From Paramacrobiotus metropolitanus (lineage: Eukaryota; Tardigrada; Eutardigrada; Parachela; Macrobiotidae), in assembly GCF_019649055.1 (NCBI RefSeq), contig NW_026570258.1, positions 186,001-250,000 of the forward strand: 64,000 nucleotides of DNA. Direction: 5' to 3'. Of this stretch, positions 1-25,302 are shown piece by piece. The notes under the pieces were generated by a model. It made no database searches. It was not told the DNA's origin and saw only the letters and a list, made by a program, of their open reading frames with translations. Within the stretch, counting starts at the first letter, position 1; each line of letters begins with the position of its first letter. The translations under genes and the position numbers were made by a program.

Positions 1-1048
1 CCATTTGTTCCGGTTGAGCTGCCAGTTCAGCTGGGACTTCAGCCGCCGGTTCCGCCTGATGGGCTTCCGGCTGCTGTTCGGGTGGGACAAAGTTACGTTT
101 CGACTTATTTGTTAAGTCTACCGTAAGTCCGATTCCCGTCTCTCCAGATCCGGTCCGTTTTCCTGGTGGAGGTCTGGTCGGCTCTTTTCCGACTTGCCGG
201 ATCACGGCTCGTTGCTCTTCGATTCTGTCTCGAAGATCAACAGGACCGATCCTATGTCGAAGGTCATGTCCCGCAAGATTCTTACTTGGTCGGCGCTGCT
301 GTTGAGCCGCCGGTTGAGTCCGATTTCCGTGTTGAGGGATCTGCTGGGAAACAGTTGGACGAGCCTGTGTGACTACTGGCGTTGCCCTGTGTGGGATTGC
401 CATCAACTGTTCCTGAGTCGCCGGGGTAAAGGTAACCGGCTGTTGGGTTCCGTCCGGCATGTTCATCATCATTGTTATCGATGCACTGGTCAATGGTCGG
501 TGTGGGTCTCCGACGAAGACATCGCGTACATCGTGGATGAGCTGTTCGCTATCCGAGCGACCCTGTGTGGGTGCCGGTAACCGAATTTTTATTTCTGGTT
601 CATAGTCGGTCGGTGGGGGATGGACCTTCATCGAGGCAATTCGTTTGTCGACCTCTCTGATCTTCTTCTGGTCCTCCAATTGACGGTTAGCGTCTTGCAG
701 CTGGCGGTACTCCCACAGTCTATCCGTTAAGACTGGTGGTCGGGTTCCTTCCCATCTCGGGTCGCGGGTTCGTTGCCGCTGGAGTGTAGCCAGGTTATCC
801 TGTTCATGCGACTCTAGTTGGTCGACAAGGTATTCTCTGCCGGCCAGGTACCGATATGCGCTCAAGTTACCAGCGACAACATTAATGTAAAGTGCCGCCG
901 CCTGAGCTCGGTGTTGGGGTCCCGTGCCGGTAACTCGTTCGTTCGTGAAGGATACGATGCATTGCGCGCAAGGCAATCTGTTGTTGTCCCTCGTCGCGTT
1001 ATCCCTGCACTGTTGGCAGTCCACCGTGTAAGCTTCCGTTCGAGTCTG
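1..1048 (-). CDS. Giant element: accessory frame open at the left edge
   Basis: A minus-strand frame is open from 1048 to the first base of the window without a stop, so it continues outside. The first in-frame ATG is at 629-631, but coding-like sequence extends upstream of it. The protein has a four-cysteine cluster CQQCRDNATRDNNRLPCAQC (C-x2-C...C-x2-C, possible zinc binding), a short helical stretch, then a Pro/Gln/Thr-rich region. Composition matches the other accessory frames. Confidence 0.5.
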
Positions 1049-1268
1049 TCAAAACAAAGGTAAGCAAACCGTTTCTCGGTTGCGTCCTATGATTTACACC
1101 CTATAATTACTACGGTCGGGCCAGGTCGGTTCTCGAGCTGGTCCAAGACGCCTTTGTGGTCGTCTAATGAGGTAAGTCGACTTCTGTTGGTCGTTGGTCG
1201 GTGATGCCAATGTGGTGTCACTGGAGGAAGGTCGGTTATGCCTCTCCTCCGACGCGTTCTGCGTTCCC

Positions 1269-3449
1269 TCACTCCCGTGTGGGTGCTTCTGTCGACTCCG
1301 GTCGACTTGCTTGGTGCGAGTCAGCCAGCTCGGTTGACTGTGCCGAGGTGGATCGTCCCTTCGGTAAGTGTCCGTGCCGGTGAGTTGATGGGTTTAATGC
1401 GATGAACCGTTGGCCGCCCTGGACTTTTTCGGTGTTCGTGGCAATTCTTTGTTGGTAGAGTGCCTTCGATAAGACGAATTCCAGTTCGTCTTCCAGGGAA
1501 TACTTCTTGCGTCCGGCGATTACGTCCGGTTTGGCTTCGTATTTAGGGTCGACCAACTGCGGTTCTGCTGCTGTCCATTCGAACTCGAACCGTGCTGTAA
1601 GTTGGTGGAGTATTTCTCCACGGGTAAGTCCGTCGGGATGCCAGGACATTTCCATACACGCTTCGATGGCGTGTGTCCATCCTTCGTATGTTGAAGGGGC
1701 CGGGTCCTTTTTAGCCGGTGGGAACTCGTAGTACATCCGCTTTGTGCTGGTGTACGTACGTATTATCTTCCCGGCATGGTATCCCAGGTCGCAGTAATGT
1801 CGTACGTTATTCTGGCTGAGTTGTCGCCAGTCGCCCGTCTCATCTACCTTCCAATGTTGGAGGAGTTTGAAGGCGATTCTTGGTGTGGCGAATTTCGGTC
1901 CACGTGTAGCCAAGGCCTTCAGGGCGGCGAATGTGTACATCCATCCCGCATCGTATTCCGAAACACTCGGCTTCGGTTTTGAGGCCGATTTGATGCCGGT
2001 GTATTTGACCCTAACGTTGGTCAACGGGGGAATGTCGTCCGGCAACACTTCCATGGTGTCCTCATTCCATTCGGAGAGAAGTGGCCGCTCGTCAGTGTCA
2101 GGAGTTATCGGTATCCGTTTACCGTACTGACGAGGGATATACACTCCGCCATCGTCCTCATTGCCTTTGGACTCCTCGGCTTTGTCGCCGCTGTCCTTTT
2201 CTTCGGGTTGTTTATCCGGTATCTCCGGTTCGCCCTGGTGTTGAGGTGCCGAGCTCGACGGTGGTGGAGGTTTACCATCCTCGTCGTCGTCGTCATCGCT
2301 CTTTGGCGATCCGTTCCCAGGTGTTTGGAAATCGTCGTCGTCATCATCATCTTCGGTTTCTTCATCGGATGACGAGGTCGGTTCCGATGACTTCGGTTCC
2401 TTTTTCTTGGCCGGCTTAGTCGACTTCGTCTTGGTCGACTTTGACTTTCCCTTCTGCTGGGTCAAGTCTTCCGGTTCCGGGGAAATTTCCATGGGCGAGG
2501 ACGGCGGGAGTGACTGTACGTCCCTCGGAATGAACCGTCCTTTCGCGCTCCGAGTCGGTTTTGCCGTACTTGCTCGTCCCCCTGGAGCTGGTGCCGTGCC
2601 GACATATGTTGTCGGTTCGTGGGGTGCTCGAGGTCGGGGTAAGACTTGGACTCGTCTTTGTGACGACTGTCCAGCCGTACGAGCTATATGCAGCAAGGCG
2701 GCTGCATCCTCCGACGGTTGTTCGTTGGAGTCACTATACTCTTCAATAGGTTCCGTGCCAGCCGGAGGCTTGTCCGTGTTGACGTAAGACATCCGGAGGT
2801 TGAATTCACGCCGATGTTGTTCCGGTATGAAGTTAGGCACGGTATACCGTACCGGTACATCTCGTTCCGCATTGGTCGTTTGAAGGGTATGTTCCGCGAC
2901 CAAGGATTCGATTCGACCTGCTATATGGTCGATAATCTCATCGATGTTGCCCTTCTTGTCCATGTACATTACGTTATATACACGGGCAATCTGGACCAAA
3001 GTCGATCCACGGGGATTCCGGATATATCCGATACACCGTGCTATTCTAGTCGGTGTATCGTCCGCATTCCTGGCGGCTGCACTTTTGAGTGCCTTGATGA
3101 GGTCCGGTGGGAGCAGTTCGGCCATCCGTCCCCATTGTCGGTGAACGGCTACTGCTAATCCGAAATCCAAAGTCCAGGCGACGATCTGCATCATGAGTTG
3201 ATGCGTCAACCATTTTCCGGTTTCGCCTCCGACTTGGATGTTATTGGACAGGTCTCGGACCAAGGACTGGTAGATGTCCACGCCGTTTTTCCTGGCGTTT
3301 TCGATGCTCCTGACGACTTCAACGTGTACTCGGACGGTACGGATTAACGTATCGACCGGGTCATCCGGCTGTTCGTCCGGGAGACGCTCGCGTACATCGT
3401 CTGGGGCTGGCCACTGTGATTCATCAGTGTCCGCTCCATGGTCGAACAT
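1269..3449 (-). CDS. Giant element: 726-residue accessory frame with two winged-helix-like domains
   Basis: Residues about 1-200 look like a compact helical domain (LIRTVRVHVEVVRSIENA, LVRDLSNNIQVGGETGKW, IARCIGYIRNPRGSTLVQ). Residues about 290-450 are acidic and disordered with Asp runs. Residues about 495-690 resemble two tandem winged-helix units: first TPRIAFKLLQHWKVDETG through TSTKRMYYEF, then LTRGEILHQLTARFEFEW through GGQRFIALNP, each with helices followed by a beta-wing-like end. If right, it is a DNA-binding accessory protein. Fold assignment is by eye only. Confidence 0.55.
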   Translation of the reverse strand: MFDHGADTDESQWPAPDDVRERLPDEQPDDPVDTLIRTVRVHVEVVRSIENARKNGVDIYQSLVRDLSNNIQVGGETGKWLTHQLMMQIVAWTLDFGLAVAVHRQWGRMAELLPPDLIKALKSAAARNADDTPTRIARCIGYIRNPRGSTLVQIARVYNVMYMDKKGNIDEIIDHIAGRIESLVAEHTLQTTNAERDVPVRYTVPNFIPEQHRREFNLRMSYVNTDKPPAGTEPIEEYSDSNEQPSEDAAALLHIARTAGQSSQRRVQVLPRPRAPHEPTTYVGTAPAPGGRASTAKPTRSAKGRFIPRDVQSLPPSSPMEISPEPEDLTQQKGKSKSTKTKSTKPAKKKEPKSSEPTSSSDEETEDDDDDDDFQTPGNGSPKSDDDDDEDGKPPPPSSSAPQHQGEPEIPDKQPEEKDSGDKAEESKGNEDDGGVYIPRQYGKRIPITPDTDERPLLSEWNEDTMEVLPDDIPPLTNVRVKYTGIKSASKPKPSVSEYDAGWMYTFAALKALATRGPKFATPRIAFKLLQHWKVDETGDWRQLSQNNVRHYCDLGYHAGKIIRTYTSTKRMYYEFPPAKKDPAPSTYEGWTHAIEACMEMSWHPDGLTRGEILHQLTARFEFEWTAAEPQLVDPKYEAKPDVIAGRKKYSLEDELEFVLSKALYQQRIATNTEKVQGGQRFIALNPSTHRHGHLPKGRSTSAQSTELADSHQASRPESTEAPTRE

Positions 3450-3454
3450 TTCTT

Positions 3455-6400
3455 TCAGGTCGCCCTTAAATCCCTCATAGGGATCGCCATCTCCAGGTCG
3501 GAGATTGAGTCCTTTTCTTCAATATCCGAGATCTGATCGGATTCCACGTCAGACTGTTGTTTGGATGTGGAGGGCTGGGGTTGCTCGATCGGAGTCGGCG
3601 GTTTTGGTGGGTTCCGTAGCCGACCTCCTGAAGTCTTGGCCGGCTTTGTGCCGGTTCGCTCCATGACTTCTTTGAATTTACGCTCCACCGCATCCTTGTC
3701 GTGCGGTTGTTGAGCTTTCTCCTTTTGCTCGGTCCTTTGTGGGCCGGCATCCGAAATATCCAAGCCGTCGGATGACTTATGCCGCTTGGCCGGATTGGGC
3801 TTCGGCGTCTTCACCGTAGAGTCCGACTTCGGTTTGGTCGTCTCTTTGGCTTCCGACTTTACTGGTTTCTTCTGAGTTCCCGTCGGTTGCAGCTTAGCGG
3901 ATTGTTTCGCTGCTTCCTTCTTGGCCTTCCGTTTATCCTTGTGGGATTTCGCGGAATTGGCCGAGTTAATGACCCGTGTGTCGAGATCATCGTCGATCTG
4001 GACGGAAGGTTGTCTGGTCGGAGGGGGGACTTTCATCTTGACGGGTTGCTGTGCCGTCTTCTTGGTCGACTTGGGTTCCGGAGCGGTGGCTTTATGTCGA
4101 GTCGGCGTAGCCGCTTGTAGGGCTTTAGGTCGACTCTTTTCCGCTCGGTAATGTTCTCCCATACGTTTCATAACGTCGGCCATCTTCTCGGTAAGTCGGT
4201 CGTGGTCGCGCCGAGCTTCCGTGGTGTTTCCGACTATACTGGAACGTCGGATTCTCAGCGAGTGCCAGAGTTCCCTGTCCTCCGGGTATGCCATGTCGAT
4301 GCAGGCATCCTGTTCCGACCTCGTCAGGTCCTTGACATGTTGTAAGGCTGGGTCATCGTGGAATTCGCGTGACGAGTCCTGGGGTGGTTTCTCTTTTATC
4401 GTACTCCGTTTGGTCGGTATATTTACCGACTCCTTTACCGACTCGTTCGTTCGAGACTCGTCAATTGTTAGACGTGGGCCGGAGTGTATCGAGGTCGGTT
4501 CGTCCCTTTGTGGTGACGTTTGGACCGTTATTTCGACTCGCGCTTCCGAAGGGGATGTTGTGTCCATCGCGTCTTCGGTTTTCTTCGGTTTGGTCGGAGT
4601 ATTCCGAGGTGTGAACCTGAGTGGACTCTCCATTATCGGTTGACTCGGCAGCTTAGTCGGCTGGGATGCTGATCGGGTCGGCGAAATTTGTTTGGCCGGC
4701 GATCTGCCTCGTTTCGGCGTGGATCCCTTCAGTGGTGCCGCTGCCTTCTGTTGCATGGAGTCATCGGAGTCTACGTTGTCCGCATTCTCTTCATCTTCAC
4801 TACTATCCGACATTGTTATCGGAATCTTCTCGGTAACCTCTTCTCCGGGCCGAGGTTGGATTTCCAGCGTGTAAGCGCCCGGGTTGATGCTCGGATTGCG
4901 GAGCCGTTGAATTGTTTGGATCATGGTCGGGTCCAGCGGGAGTTGTCGTAACTCCTGCTTTCCGCATCTTAATGTGACCAACCGTCTCAAGACTTTGTCT
5001 CTGTCCTGGATTGTGGCATGAATCTTCTGGGCCGTTTGAGTCTGTTGCTCTTCGGTCATGGTCCGATCTCGGATACCTCCTTGAAGTTGTGCTTCGTAAA
5101 GTATCCGTTGAAGATCCAGTGTTTTGGCTTGGCTGACCAACTTCTTGTGGATGCCGGGAGTAAATAAGGCCTTCGCTCCCATCACTTTCCGTGACGGGCT
5201 CGGCTTCTCTTCAGCCGGTGGTAGGGAAGACGGAGTCGCCTTCAGGATTTCCAAGAGTCGTTCCTTGGTCCTGACTGGTGATGGCGACTTTGGCGGGAAG
5301 AGACGCCTGCGTGGACCGTGCTCTTCAATGTTATCCGTCAGTTTCGGCTTCCTGGCGAATTTCGGTGAGTTTGATCCGCCAGGTTGGAGGACGAGTCGAC
5401 CGTCGGGTGTTCGTTCACTCTGCGGTTCTCTTTGTGAGAGCCCAGGTAACGTGGTCGGTCGTTCGAGGGGATTAGGTCGGCTAGTTTCCGTTGCTGGAGC
5501 TTCCTCGGACGTGTCCATCGGCTCGTCTTCACCTTCGAGTCCTGGTACCGGTACTTCGTCCATCGGTTCGTCTTGGTGACTCGCCGGTGGGACTACCTGT
5601 GTCGGTTTGACAGGTTGTACCTTAGGCTTTTTAGCGGAGGGCGGCTTCTTCAGCTTGCGTTGCGCTTCCGCTTCCTTCCGCTTGTAGAAGTCGTCTACGA
5701 AGGACTGAATCATGGCCGTCAAAGTTTGCAGCCGTTCCTGGTTCTTTGCCGACCACACCGTTGTTGGTCGGAGGATGAATCGGGCTTCCTTGGCGTTATT
5801 CTCCAAGTGTCCGAGATTGATATCGATCTGACAATACTGCGGACTCCGTTGGTCGGTCTCGTCCATCATCTTCCGAAGTTCGACGATGACAGCGTCCGCT
5901 CGCAGTAACTGTGTGTTAACTGCTTTTACCCATTCAAGGTCGGGTTTGGCTGGTGGGGCTAGAGGTGGAAGTCGGACAGAATCGAAACTCGGTTTCCGAG
6001 CCGACTGGATCTTTGTGATCCGAGACGGTCGACCTTCAGTCATGGCGTTTGTTGCCAAGCTGGTCGATTCCTGTTCTTTGTCCCGTTCCTTCTCTTCCTC
6101 GTACTCGTTTACCCTTGTCTCCAACCATGAGGTCGTTCGAATCAAATGTTGTCGAGTCCTGGTCGTCTGTGGGGCGTCCGGATGACAGAGTCGTCGTATG
6201 AACCGAGCATTGTTTCCCCACGCTAGGATATCTCGATCCAAGTCGTTCGCTTCTTGGCTGTTGTCTTCGCAAAAATTTCTGCGGGCTCTCATCTCTGTGA
6301 TGAGTTCCGCTACTCTAGCCAGTAGTTTGACTATATGTGGCGCGACCGTACTCGGCAGTTCGTCCGTGTCCGGTATGGCTTCCATGATCCGAGCTTCTGT

Positions 6401-7249
6401 AGCCGGAGACATGGGTCGGTCGGCCATTTCCATCGGTTTCGGTTGGGCCAAACCTGCTGTTGAGGTCGGCTGAATCCGAGCTGTTGTCGAACTCGGCTGA
6501 CTCGAGGTGTTCGGCTGTTGCGAACCGGATGCGCGTTGTGCTGCCTTCCGTTGTTCCTCGAGCTCCTTTCGCCGTAAGATTTCGAGGTCAGTTTGAACAT
6601 CTTGGATGTGCATCTGGGAGACTCTAATTTGGTCTTCAATTGCCGTCCGGATGTTACGGATGGTCGGATCTGTTCCGTCCATGTTGTCAACTTGACGTTG
6701 CAAGCTATCGGCAATCCTTTGTGTACGAGCCAACTTGTCGTTGAGGGCTTCACGCTTTTCTGCCAATGTGGGCTCGAGCGGTTGTTCCGAAGCAGTCGGC
6801 TGCGGCTGACTAGGGGTCGGCTGAACCCTTTGTGGGTTAACCTCTAGAATTTTCCATAAATCTTCGACCCGCCTTGAGCAGATGCTATACTGCTGGTCCA
6901 AGGCGTTGCGCATTTGCTTCTCCATGGCGTTATTCGGGTCGAGTTCCCGGAGTTGTTTTCCGAGCTTCTCCATGACGTCGACCGCTTCGCGGTATTGGTT
7001 CTCAACTTCACCGATGTCGACTGCCTTTGGTTCGGCTGCCTCGGCGAATGGAAGTTCGACGTCAAGTCCAGGTGATGGAACTGGGGAAGGTGGTTTCCCA
7101 CGAGCTGGTACTGGCGCTCCCGCTTTGTTCGGGTTTGCCAAGTACTGTTTGACATGATCGATCACCGACTGAAGTGCTTCAATTAGCCGGTCCCGGTTCG
7201 GGCCTGGCGGTGGGATTCCCCATGAGCCTAGAGTATCGGCCCAATCCAA
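3455..7249 (-). CDS. Giant element: 1264-residue accessory frame, the longest in the window
   Basis: Residues about 1-560 contain at least five helical-hairpin modules of the same design (MEKLGKQLRELDPNNAMEKQ, SLQRQVDNMDGTDPTIRNIR, ELRKMMDETDQRSPQYCQID and others) joined by Pro/Thr/Ser linkers. Residues about 560-1264 are mostly disordered, Lys/Pro/Ser/Thr/Glu-rich, with some helical patches (ERLLEILKATP, DRDKVLRRLVTLRCGKQELR). The Lys-rich C-terminal half could bind nucleic acid, which is inference. It is one unbroken frame of 3.8 kb, which argues for recent selection or recent insertion. Confidence 0.65.
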   Translation of the reverse strand: MDWADTLGSWGIPPPGPNRDRLIEALQSVIDHVKQYLANPNKAGAPVPARGKPPSPVPSPGLDVELPFAEAAEPKAVDIGEVENQYREAVDVMEKLGKQLRELDPNNAMEKQMRNALDQQYSICSRRVEDLWKILEVNPQRVQPTPSQPQPTASEQPLEPTLAEKREALNDKLARTQRIADSLQRQVDNMDGTDPTIRNIRTAIEDQIRVSQMHIQDVQTDLEILRRKELEEQRKAAQRASGSQQPNTSSQPSSTTARIQPTSTAGLAQPKPMEMADRPMSPATEARIMEAIPDTDELPSTVAPHIVKLLARVAELITEMRARRNFCEDNSQEANDLDRDILAWGNNARFIRRLCHPDAPQTTRTRQHLIRTTSWLETRVNEYEEEKERDKEQESTSLATNAMTEGRPSRITKIQSARKPSFDSVRLPPLAPPAKPDLEWVKAVNTQLLRADAVIVELRKMMDETDQRSPQYCQIDINLGHLENNAKEARFILRPTTVWSAKNQERLQTLTAMIQSFVDDFYKRKEAEAQRKLKKPPSAKKPKVQPVKPTQVVPPASHQDEPMDEVPVPGLEGEDEPMDTSEEAPATETSRPNPLERPTTLPGLSQREPQSERTPDGRLVLQPGGSNSPKFARKPKLTDNIEEHGPRRRLFPPKSPSPVRTKERLLEILKATPSSLPPAEEKPSPSRKVMGAKALFTPGIHKKLVSQAKTLDLQRILYEAQLQGGIRDRTMTEEQQTQTAQKIHATIQDRDKVLRRLVTLRCGKQELRQLPLDPTMIQTIQRLRNPSINPGAYTLEIQPRPGEEVTEKIPITMSDSSEDEENADNVDSDDSMQQKAAAPLKGSTPKRGRSPAKQISPTRSASQPTKLPSQPIMESPLRFTPRNTPTKPKKTEDAMDTTSPSEARVEITVQTSPQRDEPTSIHSGPRLTIDESRTNESVKESVNIPTKRSTIKEKPPQDSSREFHDDPALQHVKDLTRSEQDACIDMAYPEDRELWHSLRIRRSSIVGNTTEARRDHDRLTEKMADVMKRMGEHYRAEKSRPKALQAATPTRHKATAPEPKSTKKTAQQPVKMKVPPPTRQPSVQIDDDLDTRVINSANSAKSHKDKRKAKKEAAKQSAKLQPTGTQKKPVKSEAKETTKPKSDSTVKTPKPNPAKRHKSSDGLDISDAGPQRTEQKEKAQQPHDKDAVERKFKEVMERTGTKPAKTSGGRLRNPPKPPTPIEQPQPSTSKQQSDVESDQISDIEEKDSISDLEMAIPMRDLRAT

Positions 7250-7938
7250 CTCGAGTCGTAGTGCTCGGTCGATCCGGGTGAGGTCGGTTTCTCTTGTTCC
7301 GTTAGGGTTCCACTAAGTCGATGGTAAAAGATGTCGGCCAAATCCTGTCCAGCTTGGGTAATTATGTCCAAGTTGGCGGTTAAGTTTTCCATTGGTGTCG
7401 TGCCGACTAGAGTCATCACCGCTGTCGTAGTCGGTGCTGGTCGGCGAGGTGGAGACGGCGTGGCGATCCGAGTGTACTCGGGTTCCGCGTTGAGGATCTC
7501 TGTGATCCGCTCAACTACCGACCTGAGTTGTCGTTCGTCGACTTCGGTCGGTTCTTCTTTGCGGAGTAAGTCATCTGCCTTTTTCAAGTAGGCTGTCAAG
7601 TCGTTCATCTTCTGCCGTGCCACTCTCAGAGTTTCGCCGTCAGTTGGCGTATTCTGTACGAAAGTCCGCTGGAGGTCTTCCAGTAGGTCCCATCCATCGG
7701 TGATTAAGGACATCTTTTCTCTGCGGCTTTTCCGCATTGCCGAATGCATCTCTGCCGCCGATGAGGTCGACGGTAACGCGTCCGAGGCTTCCGTGTCCGA
7801 GTCGTGTGGTCGGTGATAGCCCCGTGACTCTGGTCGGCGCTGGCGTCGGCTATATTCCCGCAACTGGTTTATGCCGTTCATTACGAGTTGAAAATGAACT
7901 CCCGGTTCGACCGTGCCTGGCTGTATCAGGTCCCTCAC
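7228..7938 (-). CDS. Giant element: 236-residue accessory frame with helical hairpins
   Basis: Same style as its neighbours: an Arg/Ser-rich stretch, a helical hairpin block (LLEDLQRTFVQNTPTDGETL... then DLTAYLKKADDLLRKEEP), a Pro/Thr linker (PPRRPAPTTTAV), and the start of another helical block. It overlaps the next frame slightly. No recognised family. Confidence 0.55.
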   Translation of the reverse strand: MRDLIQPGTVEPGVHFQLVMNGINQLREYSRRQRRPESRGYHRPHDSDTEASDALPSTSSAAEMHSAMRKSRREKMSLITDGWDLLEDLQRTFVQNTPTDGETLRVARQKMNDLTAYLKKADDLLRKEEPTEVDERQLRSVVERITEILNAEPEYTRIATPSPPRRPAPTTTAVMTLVGTTPMENLTANLDIITQAGQDLADIFYHRLSGTLTEQEKPTSPGSTEHYDSSWIGPIL

Positions 7939-8010
7939 AAGTTGTATGTGAGTGGCGAACTCGGAAGTTATCCTCTGCGCGTTCGGCTCGAGTCCATTTT
8001 CGGCACGTTG

Positions 8011-10515
8011 CTAAATCCGTTTTAGAATATCTTCCGCCTCCTGTATAGCGATTCCGCCGTAGAGGATTGTCCTGTCGGGTGGTGAAGGTTTCGCCGCTAC
8101 GGCCTGTGTGGTCGTCAGCGGAGGCGATGATATCGGTGAAGTCATAACGGCTCCCGGTAGTAACGTCGTCGGTTGGACGTTATCCGTCAGTAAGGACGGG
8201 AGTTTCTCCGCCGAGATAGCCGTCTTCACCTGATCCATGACTGTTCGGAGTCGGTGTTTGTCCACCTCTGTGGTGGGCAAGCCGTACCGAGTGAGATCTT
8301 CAGTTAGCCCTATGTGGGCTATGAGATCGTGGATTTTCCGGACTGGATCTAGGTTGGTAGGATCTCGGATTCCATCAGCTATGCGTCCGTAGATTCCTTG
8401 GAGAGCTTCTTTGCCGTCCAGGATGGTTTTCCAGACCTCTGTCGTCTGGTCATCCTGTCCGATCTGAAATGCCATCGCATGGTACCGGGGCTGGGGAACC
8501 TGTTGTTCGGCTCCGCCTGTTTGGCTCTGGATTATCTGTCGAATCCTCCGGTAATGCATGTTTAGTCGAACGGCCTGATCATCTGTGGTTATGCCGCCGT
8601 CCTGTTCGGCAAGTCTGCGGGCGATCCGTAAACTTCGGTAAAGGTCGTTTACTAACCGTGCTCTGTTGGTTACGGCGACCAAGTCTCCGCCTTGCGTCAT
8701 CCTCACTTCGTCGAGGATTCGATCTCCCGTTCGGATAGCGGCCTGTACTTCTGCCAATGTGGGCATTTGTACGTCTTCTGACCGTCGTTCGGCTGCGTCC
8801 AGGTTCTGGGCAAGCTGTGGATACAGGTTAGCTCGGTTCTGAGCATTCCGTATCCTGTTCCGGATTGCATTTAGCGAATCCAGACTTGTCGGCATTCCGG
8901 TCGTTAAGTAAGACCGAAGTCCTGACATGAAGTCGCGGATGGCCCTCCTGTGGCTATCGAGGTTCGTTGCCTCGGTAGTCCCTGCCTGTGTATCTTCTAA
9001 TACCGTGTCCATCCGACCTGTGACTATTGTAGCCATTCGCAGGAAATCCCGCAGCTCCTGCAGTGTTGGGAGCGGTTCGACGGGTGGCCCTTGTGGGACC
9101 TGTTGTATCGGGTTCAGCTGGAAGGTCGGAACTTTGATCAGCGGATTAGAGCTGAGCGTCATTAACGGTGAAGGTTGAGTTCCGGTCGGGACAACTGCTG
9201 GTTGAGTCGTCGTCGGCTGTAAAGCTCGGATTTCATTCTCCTTCTCCGTCAACCTCTTAGTCCAATATCCGATTAGTTCGGAGTTAGATTGGACGGCTGA
9301 GGGGTAATATTCCTTGGTTGGATCAAGTGTAGCCAGGCGCTTCTTCACTTCATTTATTTCATGAAGGTATTCGCTGCGTTTTTGCGCTAGAGCGTCCAGC
9401 CGGGCTAATCGGATTTCTTCGTCAATCACCGCCTGTGTGGTCGGTGCTGATATTCCCGACGAGCGCAAGTTTTGTTCCTGTGCTCGTATCCGCTTCTCCG
9501 AGTCGGCTGCAATGTCGACTTGTTGATCTTCCTGTCGGCGTATTCTGCCGAATTCAGCCGTGTAATTATCCATGTTCTGAGGAAGGCGTGTCCATGACAC
9601 TCTTAGCTTTACGGCCTCTTTCATGGCCTCCTCCTTCCGGAGACGTAGTTTTCCGATCTCCAGTGAGGGTGTTCGGCCAGGCGTTTGTCGGCCTGCCGAA
9701 GTCGACGGAATTGGTTGAGACGTCGGCGTGACAACCTGTGTGGTTATCGCCGGGGGCCCTGGGTCCGGGTCTCCTAGTCTCTGGCCAACATGCCGAGCTA
9801 CCGCTTGTTGGCAGATTCGGAGGGTTTCCTTTTCTTCGGCATGAAGCTTCAAGGTGGCGTCGTTCAGACGGTTCTCGTAGTACGACAGTTCAGCCAACAA
9901 CTTCGTTCTGTACGGCGTGTGGCTCGGATCCATCTGTGAGGTCTGCGTAAGTGCTTGGCTGATCGTGTCTATGTGAGCACGAGCCAATTTTGCCTGTTGA
10001 CGCAATTCCTCTTCGGTTCTGCCGTTAGTGTTGATTTCTTGGACGACCGCAAAAGGTGGAGGCATCGACGTTACGACCTGTGTGGCCGTCGTCGAGACAG
10101 GCACTTGTTGGCTCTGTCCTCCGACCTGACTTCTATGCTGGTTCAGCCGGTTCATTAAGTGGGTCGTCGCGTTTGGATCCATCCAGAGGTTCTGTCGTCC
10201 GGGTGGTCTAAGATGATTCGGCGAGATCGGTGGCGTAAGCAATACTGGCCTTGGTGGCGAGATTATGCCGTCCGGTCTGACCATACTCATCGTTGCGATC
10301 GTCATAGGTGGCATTCCGGGCGTAGGCGGAACCGCTACGAATCGCATCGGTGGTGGGTATGCGAAACTATTCGGCGCCAGTGTGGGCGTCGTATAGATTG
10401 GACCCGCTGTGTTAGCCATTCCTGGCGCCATTGTGGGCACCGTGTAAATCGTTACGGGCGTGTTCGCCATCCCTGACACCATTGTCGATGTCGGGTAAGT
10501 TGCTCCGGTCATCAT
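8011..10515 (-). CDS. Giant element: 834-residue accessory frame with helical-hairpin modules
   Basis: The N-terminal 110 residues are Pro/Thr/Met-rich, with a repeated MANT.....IYT.PT phrase. From about residue 150 on, blocks of roughly 55-70 residues repeat: two amphipathic helices separated by a D-P or N-L-D turn, for example DTISQALTQTSQMDPSHT, EVKKRLATLDPTKEYYPS and TVLEDTQAGTTEATNLDSHR. Blocks are separated by Pro/Thr linkers with TTQ[VA]V. I know of no Ty3 protein like this. A structural or scaffolding role is inference. Confidence 0.6.
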   Translation of the reverse strand: MMTGATYPTSTMVSGMANTPVTIYTVPTMAPGMANTAGPIYTTPTLAPNSFAYPPPMRFVAVPPTPGMPPMTIATMSMVRPDGIISPPRPVLLTPPISPNHLRPPGRQNLWMDPNATTHLMNRLNQHRSQVGGQSQQVPVSTTATQVVTSMPPPFAVVQEINTNGRTEEELRQQAKLARAHIDTISQALTQTSQMDPSHTPYRTKLLAELSYYENRLNDATLKLHAEEKETLRICQQAVARHVGQRLGDPDPGPPAITTQVVTPTSQPIPSTSAGRQTPGRTPSLEIGKLRLRKEEAMKEAVKLRVSWTRLPQNMDNYTAEFGRIRRQEDQQVDIAADSEKRIRAQEQNLRSSGISAPTTQAVIDEEIRLARLDALAQKRSEYLHEINEVKKRLATLDPTKEYYPSAVQSNSELIGYWTKRLTEKENEIRALQPTTTQPAVVPTGTQPSPLMTLSSNPLIKVPTFQLNPIQQVPQGPPVEPLPTLQELRDFLRMATIVTGRMDTVLEDTQAGTTEATNLDSHRRAIRDFMSGLRSYLTTGMPTSLDSLNAIRNRIRNAQNRANLYPQLAQNLDAAERRSEDVQMPTLAEVQAAIRTGDRILDEVRMTQGGDLVAVTNRARLVNDLYRSLRIARRLAEQDGGITTDDQAVRLNMHYRRIRQIIQSQTGGAEQQVPQPRYHAMAFQIGQDDQTTEVWKTILDGKEALQGIYGRIADGIRDPTNLDPVRKIHDLIAHIGLTEDLTRYGLPTTEVDKHRLRTVMDQVKTAISAEKLPSLLTDNVQPTTLLPGAVMTSPISSPPLTTTQAVAAKPSPPDRTILYGGIAIQEAEDILKRI

Positions 10516-10560
10516 TGTTGATGCCGAGCTGGTCGGTCCGACTATTGTAGTCGGTACCGG

Positions 10561-10920
10561 CTACTGATAAGGTGGCATTTGACCATGTGGGCCTGCTGCC
10601 GTTGTCGGAGTCGTCTGACTCGTTCCAGTTCCGAGATTCCACAGACAGCCTGTGTTATCGACTGCTGTGTTCGGTGGCAGGATTTGCGGTGGTATCGTTC
10701 CACGTTGGGGCCCGACCGTAAGACCTGCTAACACATTAGCTGTTACGTTAGCTTGAGGATTGTCTACCTGCGGTAATGGCGTCTGTGTGGCCGACCGCGA
10801 ATTATCCGATCGCGATGTCGAGCGATGAGTCGGGTAAGGTTGTGATCGGTTCGATCCGTTACCACTGCGTCCACTGTTCGATCCGCTGGAAGGTGGGTCG
10901 TGTCGGCGACGACCTGACAT
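10561..10920 (-). CDS. Giant element: small Ser/Arg/Asn-rich accessory frame
   Basis: About 119 residues, the first frame past integrase. The N-terminal part is rich in Ser, Arg, Gly and Asn, the rest in Pro/Thr with ATQTPLPQ (element-wide T-Q motif). No domain recognised. It may be the leading end of the next, longer accessory frame. Shared base composition shows it belongs to the element. Confidence 0.45.
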   Translation of the reverse strand: MSGRRRHDPPSSGSNSGRSGNGSNRSQPYPTHRSTSRSDNSRSATQTPLPQVDNPQANVTANVLAGLTVGPQRGTIPPQILPPNTAVDNTGCLWNLGTGTSQTTPTTAAGPHGQMPPYQ

Positions 10921-11096
10921 TGTTGCTGGCTGTCAAGGAAAGGAAATACGGCGCGTTAGAATTCTACTAACTCCCGTACATTCAACTGAAGATGTTCCAG
11001 TCAACTGAAGAGATTCCATTTCGACACCAAAGGTCCATCTATACCTAGCTACTGTTAAGCTATCTAAAACTCGTTCTAAGTTTTACGCCTATGGCC
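10921..11096 (-). other. Giant element: non-coding gap between integrase and accessory frames
   Basis: At 176 bases this is the largest break in the coding body. It holds a tandem direct repeat: TCAACTGAAGA occurs at 10982 and again at 11001, inside two related 18-19-base units. It could carry the signal (splice acceptor or internal promoter) for expressing the frames beyond integrase. Nothing in the sequence proves this. Confidence 0.4.
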
Positions 11097-12632
11097 CTAT
11101 GACTGAGTCTGTTCTGCTGTGACTGCTGTTTTAGGTGTCTTGGGTTTTGCTGTTTTGACTGGTTTCTCCGAGTCCGCCCGTCCCTCGGTAATCCGTTCAA
11201 GGATTTCCTTATGGGCTTCGTCTTCAGCGACTTCAGTTTCCTCCAGCATCTGTTGTGCTGTCAGCTTCGGCTTCTTAGCTGTCCCATACTTCCGTTTCGG
11301 CTTAGTCGGTTCGACTGCCTGGTCGGCTGCTTCGACTTCCGTAGTCGGCGCTGATATATTCGGTAAGTCAACCTTCCGCTTTGTGTACTTCCGCTTGGGC
11401 TTAGTCGGTTGGGCTGCCAAGTCGGTTACGGCGACCTCTGTGATCGGTGCCGACGAGTCGGTTTTCTTAACCGTCCTCTTCTTCCGAGCTGGCTTTGTCG
11501 CCGGCTTCGGTTCCTCTGTTGGTCGGTTAGCTGGCTGAACCGGTGCTTCCGACTTGTCTTCCGACTCCTTCGGTTTCTCCGTGGTCGGCTGAGCTTTGTT
11601 CTCAGTTTCGTCCAAGGTCGGTGCTGGTTCGGCAGCTATCACATCTTGCTTCTGAAGTTCTTTCAGTGCAGGTGTCTCGAAGTCGGTCGGTGGTTTCTTC
11701 CGAGGTCGACCTCGTTTCTTCTTCGCCGTCGGTTCGGTTTTATCCGCGTCGTTAGTCGGATCCGAAGGTTTCTCGACGGTTTCTTCCAGTTTGTTCTTCG
11801 GCTTCCGAGTAGCTTTCCCTTCTGTCGGGTCGGCTATCGGGCCGGTTGACCGAGTTGCTGGTCGACTTGTCTCGACTCGGCAATGTTTAGCTCGGTCGAC
11901 GGCTACCGTATCTTCACGTCCGTCTTCGCATCGAAGGAGTACGTTGTTTGGGCCAACGTAGTTGATGACCGTCCAAACTCCATCGTAGCGTTCCTTTCGG
12001 GTGGGATCCTTGGTCGGAAATTCTACCGTTACCTTATCCCTCGGTCTGAAGGTCGGACTCGACTTCTTCTTGTTGTACTGCTCGGCATTTCGTTCGAATG
12101 CTTCATCGATGTTGATGCGGGCAATCTCATGCGAGCGCTGAAGTCGTTCTTTTATCCGTCGGATATATTGTTCTTTATCCGTAAAGGTTTCCGGTGTATT
12201 TGTTCCGGCCACTACGTCCTGTGGCATGGTCATTTCTCGACCGTACAACATGTAGAACGGTGTGAACTTAGTCGCGGCATGGACGGCTCGGTTCATTCCG
12301 CAGACGACGTAATCCAAGGCTCTGTGCCATCGGTGTCCGTCTTTTACATCGCAGAACTTCCTTATTCCGTCCCAAATTGTTTGCATTTGCCGTTCGACTT
12401 GTCCTTGTCCTTCCGGATGATGGGCAGTTCCGAGTGTGTGTTGGATGCCGAAGATCCTTGCGACCTTAGCGAACGTCTTCGCCGTGAAGTGAGTCCCTCT
12501 GTCCGAGTGGATGAAGGTCGGCATTCCGTACTTCAATAAGACATCTTTGACGAAAAACCTTTCGAATTCTCTCGCGGTGTTCGTTTTCGTTGCCCGGGCT
12601 ACGGTGAACTTCGTCAGCTGGTCGGTTACCAC
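11097..12632 (-). CDS. Giant element: integrase catalytic core with AT-hook tail
   Basis: About 511 residues. The catalytic core shows MVTDQLTKF, FIHSDRGTHF (second catalytic Asp), and HHPEGQGQVERQM (catalytic Glu), followed by a C-terminal SH3-like part (DKVTVEFPTKD, VWTVINYVGPNNVLLR). The last 250 residues are a low-complexity Lys/Pro/Thr/Glu tail with KKRGRPRKKPP, a canonical AT-hook, and two copies of PTKPKRKY. A basic AT-hook tail could tether the integrase to AT-rich DNA or chromatin, like chromodomain tails of other Ty3 integrases. That role is inference. Confidence 0.92.
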   Translation of the reverse strand: MVTDQLTKFTVARATKTNTAREFERFFVKDVLLKYGMPTFIHSDRGTHFTAKTFAKVARIFGIQHTLGTAHHPEGQGQVERQMQTIWDGIRKFCDVKDGHRWHRALDYVVCGMNRAVHAATKFTPFYMLYGREMTMPQDVVAGTNTPETFTDKEQYIRRIKERLQRSHEIARINIDEAFERNAEQYNKKKSSPTFRPRDKVTVEFPTKDPTRKERYDGVWTVINYVGPNNVLLRCEDGREDTVAVDRAKHCRVETSRPATRSTGPIADPTEGKATRKPKNKLEETVEKPSDPTNDADKTEPTAKKKRGRPRKKPPTDFETPALKELQKQDVIAAEPAPTLDETENKAQPTTEKPKESEDKSEAPVQPANRPTEEPKPATKPARKKRTVKKTDSSAPITEVAVTDLAAQPTKPKRKYTKRKVDLPNISAPTTEVEAADQAVEPTKPKRKYGTAKKPKLTAQQMLEETEVAEDEAHKEILERITEGRADSEKPVKTAKPKTPKTAVTAEQTQS

Positions 12633-12732
12633 TGCGATATATTGGTATCCCTTCGTCTCCGTCCGAGGAAGAGGACCTTTGAAGTCCGCGTATATGCGAT
12701 ACCAAGCTTCACCGACTTCCGTCTTTTGGAGT

Positions 12733-13422
12733 TTACCGGGGTGGTGGGCATCGTTGCTTGTTCGTCATGATGCACTGTCGGCATTTCTCGATGTAAGCAA
12801 TGGCGTCGCTATTCATGCGAGTCCAAAAATAACGCAGCTTTAATGCTTCGATCGTTTTCTCCCTGCCGAAGTGGTTTCCGGTTTTTCCGTCGTGGAGCGA
12901 TCGAATGATTTGATTCCGCATGAGGAGTGGTACGACGAAGCAACGTTCCAACTTTGTGTTGATCGTCTTCAGTCTGTACAATACTCCTTGCGCCATCTGG
13001 TAGTGTTCCAGATGCTTCGACTTATGGTCGAGTTTCTCTGGGTTCTCCAGTTCATCGATGATTTTGCGTAGCTGCGGGTCTCGCAACTGCGCTTTCCGAA
13101 GTTCCATGTTAGGTTCGGGTGGAGGTGGGAGTGTCTCTTCGACTGCCAGCTCATCTTCTTCCGCCGTGTTGACGGTTCGAATGGTCGGTTCCAGTGTCTC
13201 TGGTGCTGGTATGTTAATGACTTGGACCTCTGTGGTGCTCAAGTCGTGCCAGTCGGTTATGACATTGCATCCGGGGAGAACCGGTGGAAGGGGGATTTTC
13301 GGTGGGTTTTCCTTATCCTTCTTTTTCTTCTTGGAGGCGTTCGCCTTCAGACGTCTAAGAGTCCGTACTGTACAGACCTTAACTTCGTCCTTGAAGTTCT
13401 CGAAGTTGGGGACTTGATCCAA
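12733..13422 (-). CDS. Giant element: RNase H-integrase spacer with H-H-C-C zinc domain
   Basis: About 229 residues. A Lys-rich N-terminus and a Pro/Thr linker holding TTEVQV precede a standard integrase N-terminal zinc domain: IIRSLHDGKTGNHFG then YFWTRMNSDAIAYIEKCRQC (H-x4-H...C-x2-C). It directly precedes the integrase core, as in other Ty3 elements. Confidence 0.85.
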   Translation of the reverse strand: MDQVPNFENFKDEVKVCTVRTLRRLKANASKKKKKDKENPPKIPLPPVLPGCNVITDWHDLSTTEVQVINIPAPETLEPTIRTVNTAEEDELAVEETLPPPPEPNMELRKAQLRDPQLRKIIDELENPEKLDHKSKHLEHYQMAQGVLYRLKTINTKLERCFVVPLLMRNQIIRSLHDGKTGNHFGREKTIEALKLRYFWTRMNSDAIAYIEKCRQCIMTNKQRCPPPR

Positions 13423-15323
13423 CTATTCGTGTGGATCTTTGTCTTCACTGCGTTCGAGTGGCCATCTCGACAGGGCGTCCGCATTGTCGCAGAAAACACC
13501 TGGCTTATACTCGATGGTTATGTCCCGTCCTTGTAAAGCCAGTGCCCATCTTGTTAGTCGAGGGTTAATGCCAGGTCGGTTCGACTCGCATCGGAGCAGG
13601 TTCTGCAGTGCTCGATGATCCGTCCTCACGGTGAATGGTCCGTGGTCGATGAAGTGCTTAAATTTCTGCACGGCCCATACCACGGCCAAACATTCCCATT
13701 CGGTAACTCCATAGTTGAGTTCCGGTCCTCGTAGGACTCTGCTGGCGTAGGCGATTGGATGATCGTCTTGTGAGATCACCGCGCCAAGTCCGGCTCCGCT
13801 TGCGTCACATTCGATGACAGTCTTTTTAGTCGGGTCGAACTTCGCCAGTACGGGTGCTTCTGTTAGCGCCTTCTTGATGTCGTTGAACTCAGCCGTGTGG
13901 GCTTTCGTCCAATCGAGCTTGATATTTTTATCCTTCCGGAGGAGCTCGTACATTTTTGACGTCTTCTGAGCGTATCCTCGGATGAATTTCCGATAGTAGT
14001 TGGCCAGTCCGAGGAACGACCTGAGTTGTCGTTCAGTTCTCGGGCAGCTTTGTTCTGCGATACAGGCCACTTTCTCGTCGTCGGTCTGGACTCCGTCTTT
14101 GCTGAGGACGTGTCCAAGGAACAACAGTCTGTCCGTTCCGATCTCACATTTGGAGGGTTTGACCGTAAATCCAGCATCGCGGAGGCATTCGAGAGTCGCT
14201 CGAAAAGCCTCTAGGAAGTCCTCGAACGTTTTGCCGAAGAAGATGATATCGTCGATGTAGGCGAATACACCTTTCTTCCGAGCTGATGCTGTGATCTTGT
14301 CCATATGCATTTGGAAAGTTGCTGGTCCGTTGCAGACTCCAAACGGCATACGGTTAAATCGCCACATGCCTTCGGGTGTTACGAAGGTGGTGTAGTCTTT
14401 GGATTGTTCGTCCATAGGAATTTGCCAAAAGCCGGACTGACAGTCTACCTTGCCGTAGTATTCCATTCCGGCACATCGGTCCAGTAGCTCGTCCGGGTTC
14501 GGTAGTGGGTAGTTGTTTTTCTTCGTGACGGCATTCAACTTGATATAGTTGATGCAGAAGCGTGTTCCTACCGTGCCGTCTCCGTTCCGTTTCGCGGCTA
14601 AGACGACGGGGAAGCTCCATGCAGCCGATGACGGTTCGATGACTCCTTGGTCGAGCATCTCTTGCACGTGTTTTGGATGAATTCACGTCCCTTCCAGCTT
14701 GTCCTGGTGGGGTTCATCTTAATCGGCTGTGCACCTTGGACATCAATGGTATGTGTTACCCCTTTGACGTCCCCGTAAGGTTTCTTCGAGGTCGGAAATA
14801 CGGTCCGGTAATCCCATGCAACTGCCTTCAGTTTAGCTAGTTGCTCATCGGTTAAGTTTTTTCCGAAGTTCATGGAGTCGATGATTCTCCGTCGCTCCTC
14901 CTGGGATTCCGCGTCTTCCTTTTCTACCTCTGCCGTGTTGACCCGTGCTTCTTCGACCTTTTGGTCGTCCGTCATCATCGTAAATGCTTCGGCTCGACCC
15001 ATCGGTGCACCTTTGCGTAAGGTGACTTCCCGATGAGTATGATTTGTCACCATGACGGTGAATCGTTTCCCGTCATGTTTGGTTACGCCGTCCATGAATT
15101 CGACTCCGTCTCGTTTGGGGTCGGATTCACCTAGGTACATAAGTTTTTGATCCGTGGATACCGGTACGTCCAGGACAACTTCTACCATGGTTACGGCTCG
15201 AGGGATGAGTTTGACCTTCCGTTGAGATCGAACTCCTGTTGCCTCGAAGACTTCGAACTGGGGTTTTAGCTTTATTTCCCGAGTAGGGGCCATGTCTTCG
15301 CCACTTTGTGTGGGAGTTCCCAT
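13423..15323 (-). CDS. Giant element: reverse transcriptase and RNase H
   Basis: Clear Ty3/gypsy polymerase. Motifs seen in order: KLNAVTKKNNYPLPN, YYGKVDCQSGFWQIPM, FNRMPFGVCNGPATFQ, FAYIDDIIFFGK (catalytic YIDD), FLGHVLSKDGV, and LRSFLGLANYYRKFI. RNase H follows with IECDASGAGLGAVISQ, TEWECLAVVWAVQKF, VRTDHRALQNL and DNADALSRWP, including the D/E/D catalytic set. Two overlapping frames cover this region. The spacing between motifs is normal for the family. Function: copying element RNA to DNA in the particle. Fossil element part. Confidence 0.95.
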
Positions 15324-17367
15324 TCGACGTATTCGTTGTTGATTTCCGGTTCATAGACATCGGCGTATTGCATATGGCCAAGTCGTACGCCTTTCTTCAG
15401 CACCTTCGTTTGGTGAGTCGTGTTCTGGATGTTTATCCATGCCGTGTCGACTTGAGGTCGGATGTCGATCTTGGCTTCGATGGGCCGAATTGGTCGGACT
15501 ACCCGTTGTAGGGTAGAGAAGTAAATTCGTCTTCTCGGATCCATTGGTTTGGCCGTCCGTACCTTGATCGAACATGTTGACCATGGTGGAAGAGAGACTC
15601 GTTCGCTGTTAAAGACAACTTGTCGGTCTAGCGCTTTCGTCTCTACATAAGGATCCAGCTTCAAGTGGTGAACTTCTGGGCATTTGTTGTCCAGGTCCAG
15701 CTCGTCAATCGTCTTGACTTTGGCTACTCGTGCCTTCCATGTGTTGAAATGCTCCGACTTCTGTTGGTCGGTCAAGTTAGCCAAGGTCGGTTGTTCGGTT
15801 GACAATTGCTGAGTGACGATTGTTGGAGGTCGGGGATCGTCTTGTTCCGGTTTATCTCCTCCGAATTCCCGCAAAGCCTTGAGCTGGTCGAATTCCTCCT
15901 GTTGTTCGGAGTCGACCGGCTTCTCCTTTTCGGGTTGTTCCGGTTGCTTGTCTATTAGTTCTGTGTGAACTATAGACCGCAGTGCTGTAGTTAGCCGGAC
16001 ATCGAAGGTCGGTTCTTCGTCCTCCGGTGATGAATCGTCCGAGTCGTTTATGCTCGGTTTATCCGTCTTACAGTGTCGGACTGACAGATCGAATTCTTCG
16101 TCGTCATCTTCCTCGGATTCTTCCGAAGGTCGGTTGTCGGAGTCTGTGTCCGCCGAATCGCTCGTACTTTGTATGTCCGAGTCGTCCGACTGATAGTCTT
16201 CAAATTCGACTTCCGATCCGTTTTCGGGGTCGACTTCTAACATGTTTTCGAATCCGACCTTTGTGGTCGGTTCGAGTTGGTCGACTTTATCCGTCGGTTG
16301 GGTAGGTCGACTTGCCCCGTCCTGATTCTCAAGATCGGCTGGCTGTGAGCCTATGTTGCTCAGCCATCGGGTGCTCGTCTGTTGGGGCTTCCGAAAGCTG
16401 TCTACCTTCCGTTCCTGTTGCGGAGGCGACGGTGACGACGGTCTGTCGTCCGACCAAGTTAGATCGTGATGGGCTTTTATTGCTCGTACTACCTCGTCAA
16501 TATTGTCTTGACAGATAGCACACCGATAAGGTTGATCGGTTTCCTCCGGGACTACGTTTCCTTGAGGCTTCGCCGGGCTACTCGCAAACTTCACATTGGT
16601 TGGAGTGTGCGCCGTAAGTGGTGGTAGCGGGTTAGGAACTTGCCGCGTTATGGCGGTGTCCTCGCCGTACCGTTGCCAAAATGCAGTTGTTGACGATTCT
16701 CCGTGCAACCTTATTCGCTGCATGTAGGCGAAGAGTTGGGAGCCTAGTTCCTGGCACGGCATTTCCAGCGGGGGTGGTATGGAAAGTCCGTATTCCATGT
16801 ATTGTCGATGGATCGGAATTCGTTCCTCTTCCCATTCCCATGCTTCGTCCTCTATGTCGTTTGTAAGGGCGATTACCGGTTCACACGTTTGTTGTGCGTC
16901 CAGTATCTGGTCGGGGGTTACCGCTCCGTTCTGTTGCAGAGTGGTCACTATCTCCGACGTCCGTTGGTCGAGGAAGTGTCGAACTCCCGTGAACCAAGTT
17001 CGGTACTTTTGTCGTACTTCCTTTGGTTCATGGCATCCGCGTCAGCGGATGCCTCTGGTATCGGGATAGACTTCAGTACAGTCCTAGCCGGTCGTAGTGT
17101 ACCGTCGCGTATCCGTTTCTGATAGTGCTCTATCACGTTATGGAGTGCTAGTTCCTCCAGCAGAGTGCGGTTCGTATCCCGGCAATCGCGGCAGATGTTA
17201 CGTGTGGAGTTCGCCGGGTGATCAAGCCGACTAATCCGAACTTCGTTTCCTACCGTGTCCGATGCCTCTGGTATCGAGATAGACTGCACTACCTTCGTTC
17301 CTTCTGGTTGTTCCGAATAGGAATCGGTGTCAGGATGAAGGTGAACTTCGAATGCAGGTAGTCGCAT
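15272..17367 (-). CDS. Giant element: protease-RT linker with C-x2-C...H-H motifs
   Basis: Two overlapping open frames between protease and RT. One contains CRDCRDTNRTLLEELALHN and the other CAICQDNIDEVVRAIKAHH, both C-x2-C followed by His pairs, so possible small zinc-binding modules. The middle part is strongly acidic (runs of E, D and S), and the last 150 residues have beta-type spacing and lie just before RT. A phrase [ST]IPIPEAS occurs twice, matching a DNA direct repeat near 17.05 and 17.27 kb. I do not recognise a known family. Confidence 0.5.
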
Positions 17368-18944: not shown

Positions 18945-19923
18945 CGACCTTGGGCGTTTCCCGGGGAGTTACTCCGAGCTGGCCCGTTGTTGGGCGACGC
19001 CAAGCCGAAATGCTGGTGTGGCGGTAACTGTTGCCGCCGTTCCGGAGATCCTTGTTGACCTCCACCGCTATTCCTGCGGTTGCTACCCGACCCGTTTCCT
19101 GGGCCGGTTTGCCGGTTTCCGTTACCGGCGCCGCCCGAGCCTCCACCTTGTTGGCGTTGGCGCGGGGGCGGCACGACCAGTGCATAGTTCGGGTTGGCCG
19201 ATCCCAACGGTCCTCCCGTCTGGTATCGCGTATGCCAATCCTCGAACCAACGGCGATTCGGGTTGTCCTGTACCCGAGTGCCGATGAACGCACATCGTGC
19301 TTGGTCGTGATTGCTGAACTTGCAGAAGTTGCAAGTAAAGCTGTCCGCTAACGACCATTGGAGGAACAGTTGTTCCATCCGGTCCACGTAGGTCGTGTAT
19401 TGCCGAGCACTTTGTTGTGCCTGGGGGGGTCGGTTCCCTTGTTGGTTGCCGCCTCCGCCGCGGTTAGGAAAGTTACCGCGACCGCGTTTTCCGCCGCCAC
19501 GTCCTTTTCCGCGACCAAAACCTCCGCCGCCGTATCCCTGTGTGGGAGGTGGGCGTATGCGGAGTATCCCTGGTTCGGGTTCTGTCCGTAACCAAAACCT
19601 GTGTTGTTTTGGTTACCGCCCGAGCCATAACCTGGGCCTCCGTAGTTGTTAACGGGGGCTCCTATTCCAGGTGCCGGGGGATTCAGGTTTGCTGCCGCCG
19701 CGCTCGCCCAAGTCTGTTGCTGGACTGGTGCTTGTTGCACCGGTGGCGTCGGCGCCGGACTCGGTTGTCCGTACTGTGCCGTCGGAGTTTGGTATCCCGG
19801 CATCATGTGCGGCTGATATCCGGTTTGTTGCGATATCGCCGGAGGTGGAGCCGGGACAGGTGCAGGTGTTGCTGCCCGAACTCTGGCGTAGTCGCCATCG
19901 CGTTGTCTGCGCACCTCATACAT
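18941..19923 (-). CDS. Giant element: Gly/Asn-rich nucleocapsid-like region with zinc knuckle
   Basis: Region between capsid and protease, covered by two overlapping open frames. It is rich in Gly, Asn, Gln and Arg (RGG-like and GGN runs) and contains CNFCKFSNHDQARC, a CCHC zinc-knuckle pattern (C-x2-C-x4-H-x4-C) typical of retroelement nucleocapsid. The likely role is RNA binding during packaging. Position directly before protease agrees with a Gag C-terminus. Fossil element part. Confidence 0.65.
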
Positions 19924-25150: not shown

Positions 25151-25202
25151 AGAGGTGGTAACGGCAAGCAGTGGTGCAAGTACGTCCTGTGTGGACCGTA
25201 CG

Positions 25203-25302
25203 CACCAGGCGCAGTCGTACGCCTCTGACACCAAGATCGACCCGCTCCTCTTCTACAGGTGCAGCGATTCCCCGGTAACCAGCAAATGGGACGTCAAATC
25301 AC
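25203..25302 (+). pseudogene. Decayed exon of a cysteine-containing secreted-protein family (type X)
   Basis: Reads HQAQSY...IDPLLFYRCSDSP...SKWDVKSQ, clearly related to the minus-strand exon at 33430-33684 (FDPLIYYKCSDSPVVSKW). At the place where the other copy has a GTAAGA splice donor, this copy has GGAAAA, so the splice site appears lost. It abuts the right end of the giant retroelement, which may have inserted into or beside this gene. Family not recognised. Confidence 0.5.

Follow-up and report, generated by a model that had tools for sequence, protein, structure and literature searches.

A Ty3-type element of 29.7 kb

The window, a stretch of 64,000 nucleotides from contig NW_026570258.1 of the tardigrade Paramacrobiotus metropolitanus (here C38:186001-250000), contains on its minus strand a Ty3-type long terminal repeat (LTR) element with an additional coding block behind integrase. 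The element runs past the window edge and occupies C38:181560-211230, 29,671 bp in total with an internal region of 28,840 bp, which bears out the comparison with the planarian Burro giants made in an earlier sequence-only reading. Pfam matches over the cut-off follow one another in the order protease, reverse transcriptase (RT), RNase H and integrase, the pol order of Ty3/gypsy elements (Metaviridae). Behind them, within the same LTR pair, lie two further genes, which we designate ORF2 and ORF3 (ORF, open reading frame; Table 1).

Other copies were sought in the 169.8-Mb assembly of the species (533 contigs), and three of them are bounded particularly clearly. The two LTRs are identical at 433/433 positions in the copy on C52, at 440/440 on C3 and at 438/439 on C54; the respective 4-bp target duplications are GACA, TAAG and CAGG, and the outer lengths are 27.4, 30.0 and 30.4 kb. 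All three have the TG...CA LTR ends, the primer binding site and the short target duplication typical of Ty3/gypsy elements (Metaviridae), and TGGTAGCAG opens the primer binding site in four of four copies. The LTRs are about 0.44 kb long, and the internal region measures 28.8-29.6 kb in three copies and 26.5 kb in C52. Because these LTR pairs are clean, the block lies inside the mobile unit and the three insertions are recent. Moreover, since each pair, together with its 4-bp target duplication, encloses the block, the latter moves with the element; it is not a host gene, and it is not a nested element either. The sequence-only reading had proposed other genomic copies as the check on its claim, and on this evidence the coding block that it described behind a Ty3-type integrase is real and common to other copies; its own two doubts, a host gene or a nested element, are contradicted by the LTR pairs, the target duplications and the kept spacing described below. 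The 3' untranslated part is 2.9 kb long in the window copy and 3.5 kb in C52; in the former it includes a 164-bp tandem duplication (L009 6770-7077).

Two genes behind integrase

The block of about 11 kb seen by the sequence-only reading is present, but it is cut by the window edge, its last frame running 1.1 kb further. Five same-strand frames of at least 150 aa follow integrase in the window (834, 236, 1264, 726 and at least 341 aa) instead of the 'six or more' counted earlier, the one of 1264 residues being exactly as described. Nor do they correspond to several separate proteins: they are pieces of two genes, ORF2, which is broken in this copy, and ORF3, and the two are linked by splicing. 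On C3, the ORF2 ATG opens a single uninterrupted frame of 3,223 codons, and single frames of 3,066, 3,302 and 3,218 aa on C478, C69 and C41 each cover both the 1264- and the 726-residue parts. Some of the breaks in the window copy may be assembly errors; the published assembly is described as built with Canu from nanopore reads with an N50 of about 17 kb (PMC11191345). ORF3 comprises about 730 codons, from window position 1045 to 1.1 kb past the edge, or about 780 residues with its leader.

Pro, Thr and Ser abound in the ORF2 product, which has helical-looking stretches but no clear membrane segment. A C4 cysteine motif is present in 13 of 14 copies of ORF3, whose C-terminal part is conserved, with numerous columns that do not vary, and whose tail is acidic. 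As the sequence-only reading had anticipated, a profile search with the window frames found no Pfam family over the cut-off in the extra frames. One duplication inside ORF2 is clear (3.5e-06 versus a best value of 0.0011 in 20 shuffled sets). A regular repeat array was rejected, the next units in an iterated search (0.064 and weaker) being no better than shuffles (0.022). An origin of ORF2 or ORF3 by duplication of Gag or of each other was likewise rejected: 28 pairwise profile comparisons among eight parts gave only two high scores, which are explained by the leader exon shared in the gene model P0002 and by rows overlapping by construction.

ORF3 is reached by splicing

In the NCBI model P0002, the 51 opening codons of ORF2, ending in CCGCAG|GT, are spliced to ORF3. 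Gene models can invent introns, and the genomic copies were therefore inspected for this join. A copy on C152 is devoid of the whole intron, TPLPQ directly joining TRTEAYTVDCQQC, and retains the integrase end and the ORF2 acceptor upstream. The junctions on C176 and C163 were also read and the intron is absent exactly in both, so that three of three candidates read show exact loss. The distance from RT to ORF3 is 3,718-3,738 bp in four copies (C176, C163, C46 and C180) versus 3,706 bp predicted for an intronless window copy; judging by this spacing, C46 and C180 are likely intronless as well, and C112 is an additional candidate from its 793-aa frame. Because three copies, belonging to at least two lineages, show exact loss from GT to AG, we conclude that spliced RNA has been reverse transcribed and inserted; the genomic copies thus show that splicing gives access to ORF3. 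Deletions arising by chance would not be expected to hit the same two points three times. An internal splice that removes one gene to reach the next is reminiscent of complex retroviruses. Spacings below those of the exact intronless copies were also observed, namely 3,103 and 3,140 bp at C19:1219615 and C37:463585, with C42:680723 likewise shorter; these are candidates for other deletions or other splice joins.

The intron-bearing copies agree with this picture. The ORF2/ORF3 donor is kept in five of the five that were read. In 12 copies, which remain of 14 ORF3 stretches after setting aside L054 (no in-frame cysteine motif) and L059 (an intronless copy), ORF3 has a stop 9-10 codons before the cysteine motif and its first in-frame ATG at least 36 codons past it; between the stop and the motif there is, in 12/12, a pyrimidine-rich stretch with AG at its end.

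A preceding splice, from the 5' leader to ORF2, is suggested by signals of a similar kind. The acceptor tract TTTCCTTTCCTTGACAG is the same in C52 and is also found in C152, there 8 nt before the ATG. Because such a tract stands 8-9 nt before the ORF2 ATG in all three copies read, the leader may be joined at this point. The predicted donor, CTG|GTGAGC, is the top-scoring one of the leader in both copies compared. Close to this candidate donor the leader (window 24590-24836) can form two hairpins, both with ACUGAAGU; the fold energy of the leader RNA is ordinary (z -1.32), and Rfam gave nothing at gathering scores in the window.

Conservation within the genome

Each part of the block recurs many times in the assembly. 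We obtained at least 49 match rows for the 1264-aa frame (best 37 of 1,093 candidates scored), at least 63 for the 726-aa frame (best 62 of 923) and at least 109 for the last 376 residues of the terminal frame (best 109 of 514). For RT, the best 101 of 1,709 candidates were scored, 67 of them with at least 92% identity and 34 with 83-89%. ORF3 is found on the same strand within 25 kb downstream in 41 of the 67 closer RT copies. In other words, the possibility that copies end just after integrase, which the sequence-only reading had left for itself, fails for close copies, although some of them do lack ORF2 through exact intron loss. The RT-to-ORF3 spacing is 12.8-14.2 kb in 30 of the 41 copies; besides the four short ones mentioned above, seven have other values. 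None of the 34 RT copies with 83-89% identity has ORF2 or ORF3 within 25 kb downstream among the matches listed for the 1264-aa, ORF3 and diverged-ORF3 queries (the last with at least 63 rows). Examples of such loci are C51:73520, C151:68578 and C57:293869. This could mean that the block is restricted to a single clade or that it has diverged too far elsewhere to appear among these matches.

ORF2 and ORF3 are under purifying selection. For the 1264-aa part of ORF2, all six pairs compared have a ratio of nonsynonymous to synonymous substitution rates (dN/dS) of 0.11-0.25, and for the terminal frame, ORF3, all eight pairs fall within 0.10-0.19; between the most distant sequences, synonymous distances rise to 1.67 and become unreliable. 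Since the ratio is low in all 14 pairs, the extra frames are not a product of chance.

Proposed expression scheme and its alternatives

Taken together, we consider it probable that this is a 29.7-kb Ty3-type element with two additional genes, of which ORF3 is expressed by splicing out ORF2 past codon 51, and that the two products share a start codon and likely serve assembly and regulation of the element. According to this scheme, a first splice, linking the leader donor with the acceptor ahead of ORF2, would yield the ORF2 message, and a second one, from the first exon of ORF2 to ORF3, would yield the ORF3 message, so that the same ATG would open ORF2 and, once spliced, ORF3. The once-spliced product, ORF2 (about 3,200 residues), might be a late assembly protein for an RNA of such great length, and ORF3, the product of two splices, might be an early regulator acting, for example, in RNA export or packaging. 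This assignment of roles is the weakest step.

Several points weigh against the scheme. In C52 the ORF2 region is shortened despite identical LTRs; ORF2 therefore need not act in cis. Aligned with each other, the LTRs of the window copy show 4 mismatches and 71 gap columns, and this copy lacks a visible target duplication. The evidence comes from genomic copies, and no copy with the leader spliced to ORF2 was found among the best 40 of 137 candidates scored. The first splice is suggested by sequence signals in two or three copies, and the proposed roles by the parallel with complex retroviruses. Sequence searches of Pfam and PDB with ORF2 and ORF3 gave no match, and the two AlphaFold models, built from inputs of 3 and 2 sequences, were unusable (mean pLDDT 36.5 and 34.4).

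The position behind pol and expression by splicing, as known for env (PMC7264820), would also suit a protein that replaces Env and mediates entry or cell-to-cell transfer from spliced RNA, and transfer of this kind by env-less elements has been described for the Drosophila MDG1 group (PMC11952523). However, a membrane-anchored glycoprotein behind pol was not found. There is no Pfam env match, and the highest 19-residue hydropathy mean over eight protein pieces is 1.49, reached in ORF2, with maxima of 1.23-1.38 in two ORF3 sequences; the sequence-only reading had likewise seen no transmembrane or env-like segment. A buried fusion segment would still be compatible with these values, but we regard an Env substitute as unlikely.

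Somewhat less probable still is that the intronless gag-pol-ORF3 arrangement represents a second, self-sufficient form of the element, with ORF2 as dispensable cargo. Intronless copies are indeed not limited to a single lineage (C152 and C176; C163), in addition to C46 and C180 as judged by spacing, yet only 4 of the 41 spaced copies are of this size versus 30 of full size. Furthermore, ORF3 of C163, from a lineage with 60% identity to that of the window, contains a stop, and the purifying selection on ORF2 is difficult to reconcile with a dispensable passenger.

ORF2 and ORF3 might alternatively be captured host genes, comparable to a transduced oncogene, given that no relative was found in other retroelements and that the sole protein matches are P. 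metropolitanus records, in searches that scored only the candidates sharing most words. However, those matches that can be placed sit in copies of the element itself (P0002 on C99, P0003 on C52 and P0004 on C3), and any capture would have to be old, as ORF3 lineages in this genome are as low as 59% identical; we therefore give this explanation little credence. Finally, an independent element inserted into, or lying next to, an ordinary Ty3 element, which the differing LTRs and absent target duplication of the window copy and the 34 more distant RT copies with neither gene nearby among the matches listed might suggest, is highly improbable in view of the clean LTR pairs and target duplications enclosing the block in C52, C3 and C54 and of the spacing kept in 30 of 41 copies.

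Returning to the scheme of a shared start codon and two successive splices, it is tempting to speculate further that an Env-less Ty3 lineage independently evolved expression in the style of complex retroviruses, in which one start codon and alternative splicing would provide both an assembly protein of 3,200 residues and a zinc-motif regulator of 780 residues. Jointly, these would enable the copying of an internal region of about 29 kb, which exceeds the length of every LTR element covered in the review consulted. We put this forward tentatively, as a possibility with somewhat less in its favor than against it.

Relation to known elements

The element is most readily compared with Burro of planarians, which is also a Ty3-type element of an invertebrate, of about 30 kb in total and with very large extra coding capacity (PMC6431247). 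As described there, Burro carries BIR, ankyrin, MATH, BCL2-like and env-like domains within a 4,873-aa ORF1 polyprotein alongside gag and pol; the internal region of Burro reaches up to 25 kb. Unlike in Burro, the extra genes of the tardigrade element are located behind integrase, no known domain was found in them and the internal region is longer; none of the ten window frames scanned has a BIR, ankyrin, MATH or env-like Pfam domain, and hence no fusion of the Burro type was detected. The Ogre elements of dicot plants owe their size mostly to LTRs of 1.9-6.5 kb, with internal regions of 11-13 kb (PMC6431247), whereas the LTRs here are short. Sense ORFs between pol and the 3' LTR are known, for example the spliced env-like ORFs of barley Bagy2 (PMC7264820). 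The tardigrade element resembles Bagy2 in having extra sense genes at the same place and a spliced message, but differs in that its two genes share a first exon, one runs to about 3,200 codons and a clear membrane segment is absent from both. The MDG1 group of Drosophila is similar in combining an Env-less Ty3-type element with conserved accessory genes; the reported sORF1 and sORF2 encode about 110 and 70 aa and lie before gag, the account giving no evidence of splicing and describing sORF2 as a membrane protein (PMC11952523). Gypsy elements of two other tardigrades are mentioned in PMC11071193, in a passage that gives no such detail. We did not find the present element in the literature on tardigrade LTR retrotransposons, extra ORFs and splicing, judged mostly from titles.

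Complex retroviruses produce their regulators from multiply spliced RNA. The tardigrade element is similar to them in that unspliced, once-spliced and twice-spliced messages likely serve different genes, and dissimilar in having no Env and no homologous regulator; its genomic copies record the second splice only.

These comparisons have several consequences. The internal length of LTR elements is raised to about 29 kb from the up to 25 kb given for Burro (PMC6431247). That an LTR element in which no Env is visible splices to reach an extra gene, as established from genomic copies alone, means that complex expression need not accompany Env. Two proteins under selection, with no match among the families searched, make the needs of a retroelement beyond gag and pol testable in an animal kept in the laboratory.

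Other features of the window

No Pfam gag match was obtained for the frames of the Gag region, and the capsid/nucleocapsid region is placed by position only. In the two copies compared, the ATG of pol shares bases with the stop codon of Gag.

Table 1. Features of the element in the window (window coordinates)
Feature	Position	Strand	Remarks
ORF3 exon	1..1045	-	N-terminal part, including the C4 cysteine motif; frame stays open as far as C38:184868
Intron of the ORF3 message	1046..10767	-	9,722 nt, GTAGAC...TTTGACAG; contains the rest of ORF2
ORF2	1269..10920	-	two in-frame stops and two frame changes in this copy
First exon shared by ORF2 and ORF3	10768..10920	-	51 codons, MSGRRRHDPP...TPLPQ, Arg/Ser-rich
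Splice acceptor tract	10930..10950	-	TTTCCTTTCCTTGACAG, 9 nt before ORF2 ATG
Integrase	11097..13422	-	zinc-binding part 12733-13422, core 11097-12632; two frames in this copy
Reverse transcriptase and RNase H	13423..14667	-	Pfam match
pol region between protease and RT	15272..16948	-	no family over cut-off
pol start, aspartic protease	17289..18944	-	ATG overlaps Gag stop (ATGA)
Gag-like region	19348..21428	-	two frames in this copy; assigned by position
N-terminal Gag region	21215..23543	-	coiled-coil-like sequence, two frames in this copy; assigned by position
Candidate leader splice donor	24630..24638	-	CTG|GTGAGC, last exon base 24638 by script count; prediction only
Primer binding site	24819..24836	-	TGGTAGCAG..., abuts 5' LTR
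5' LTR	24837..25230	-	394 bp, direct repeat TGTCAGAGG...TGTTACA; 3' LTR (437 bp) beyond the window at C38:181560-181996

The element has a compositional peculiarity, already pointed out in the sequence-only reading. The hexamer CCGACC occurs 83 times in the sense and 21 times in the antisense direction in 24.8 kb of the element, and 6 and 7 times in the adjoining 38 kb. It is the most enriched sense-strand hexamer of the element (window 1-24836 and L009 5997-10000) and is found in all three frames as well as in the 3' untranslated part. Compared with shuffles of synonymous codons, it is more than 2 standard deviations in excess in 5 of 10 frames (17 versus 4.1 in the 1264-aa frame); RT and two frames of the Gag region are not enriched. 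CCGACC may be an RNA-level motif or an expanded simple sequence.

Several other sequences were noted around the element. Just outside the 3' LTR, a 389-aa frame (L009 671-1840; C38:176671-177840) contains a ubiquitin domain (1.7e-13). About 12 kb beyond the same LTR and on the same strand, a DNA polymerase B (DNA_pol_B_2, 3.6e-22) is encoded at L010 500-3610 (C38:166500-169610), a locus that is possibly a Maverick/Polinton. Within the window, direct copies of a sequence of about 1.9 kb, some 80% identical, lie at 26236-28116 and 41995-43930, and a weak FAR1-like match, below the cut-off, at 31930-32658. A frame for a reverse transcriptase of a different type (RVT_1, 3.4e-17) is located at 35622-37838, and positions 47178-49603 are made up of approximately 27 head-to-tail copies of a G+C-rich unit of about 90 bp, as estimated from self-matches.

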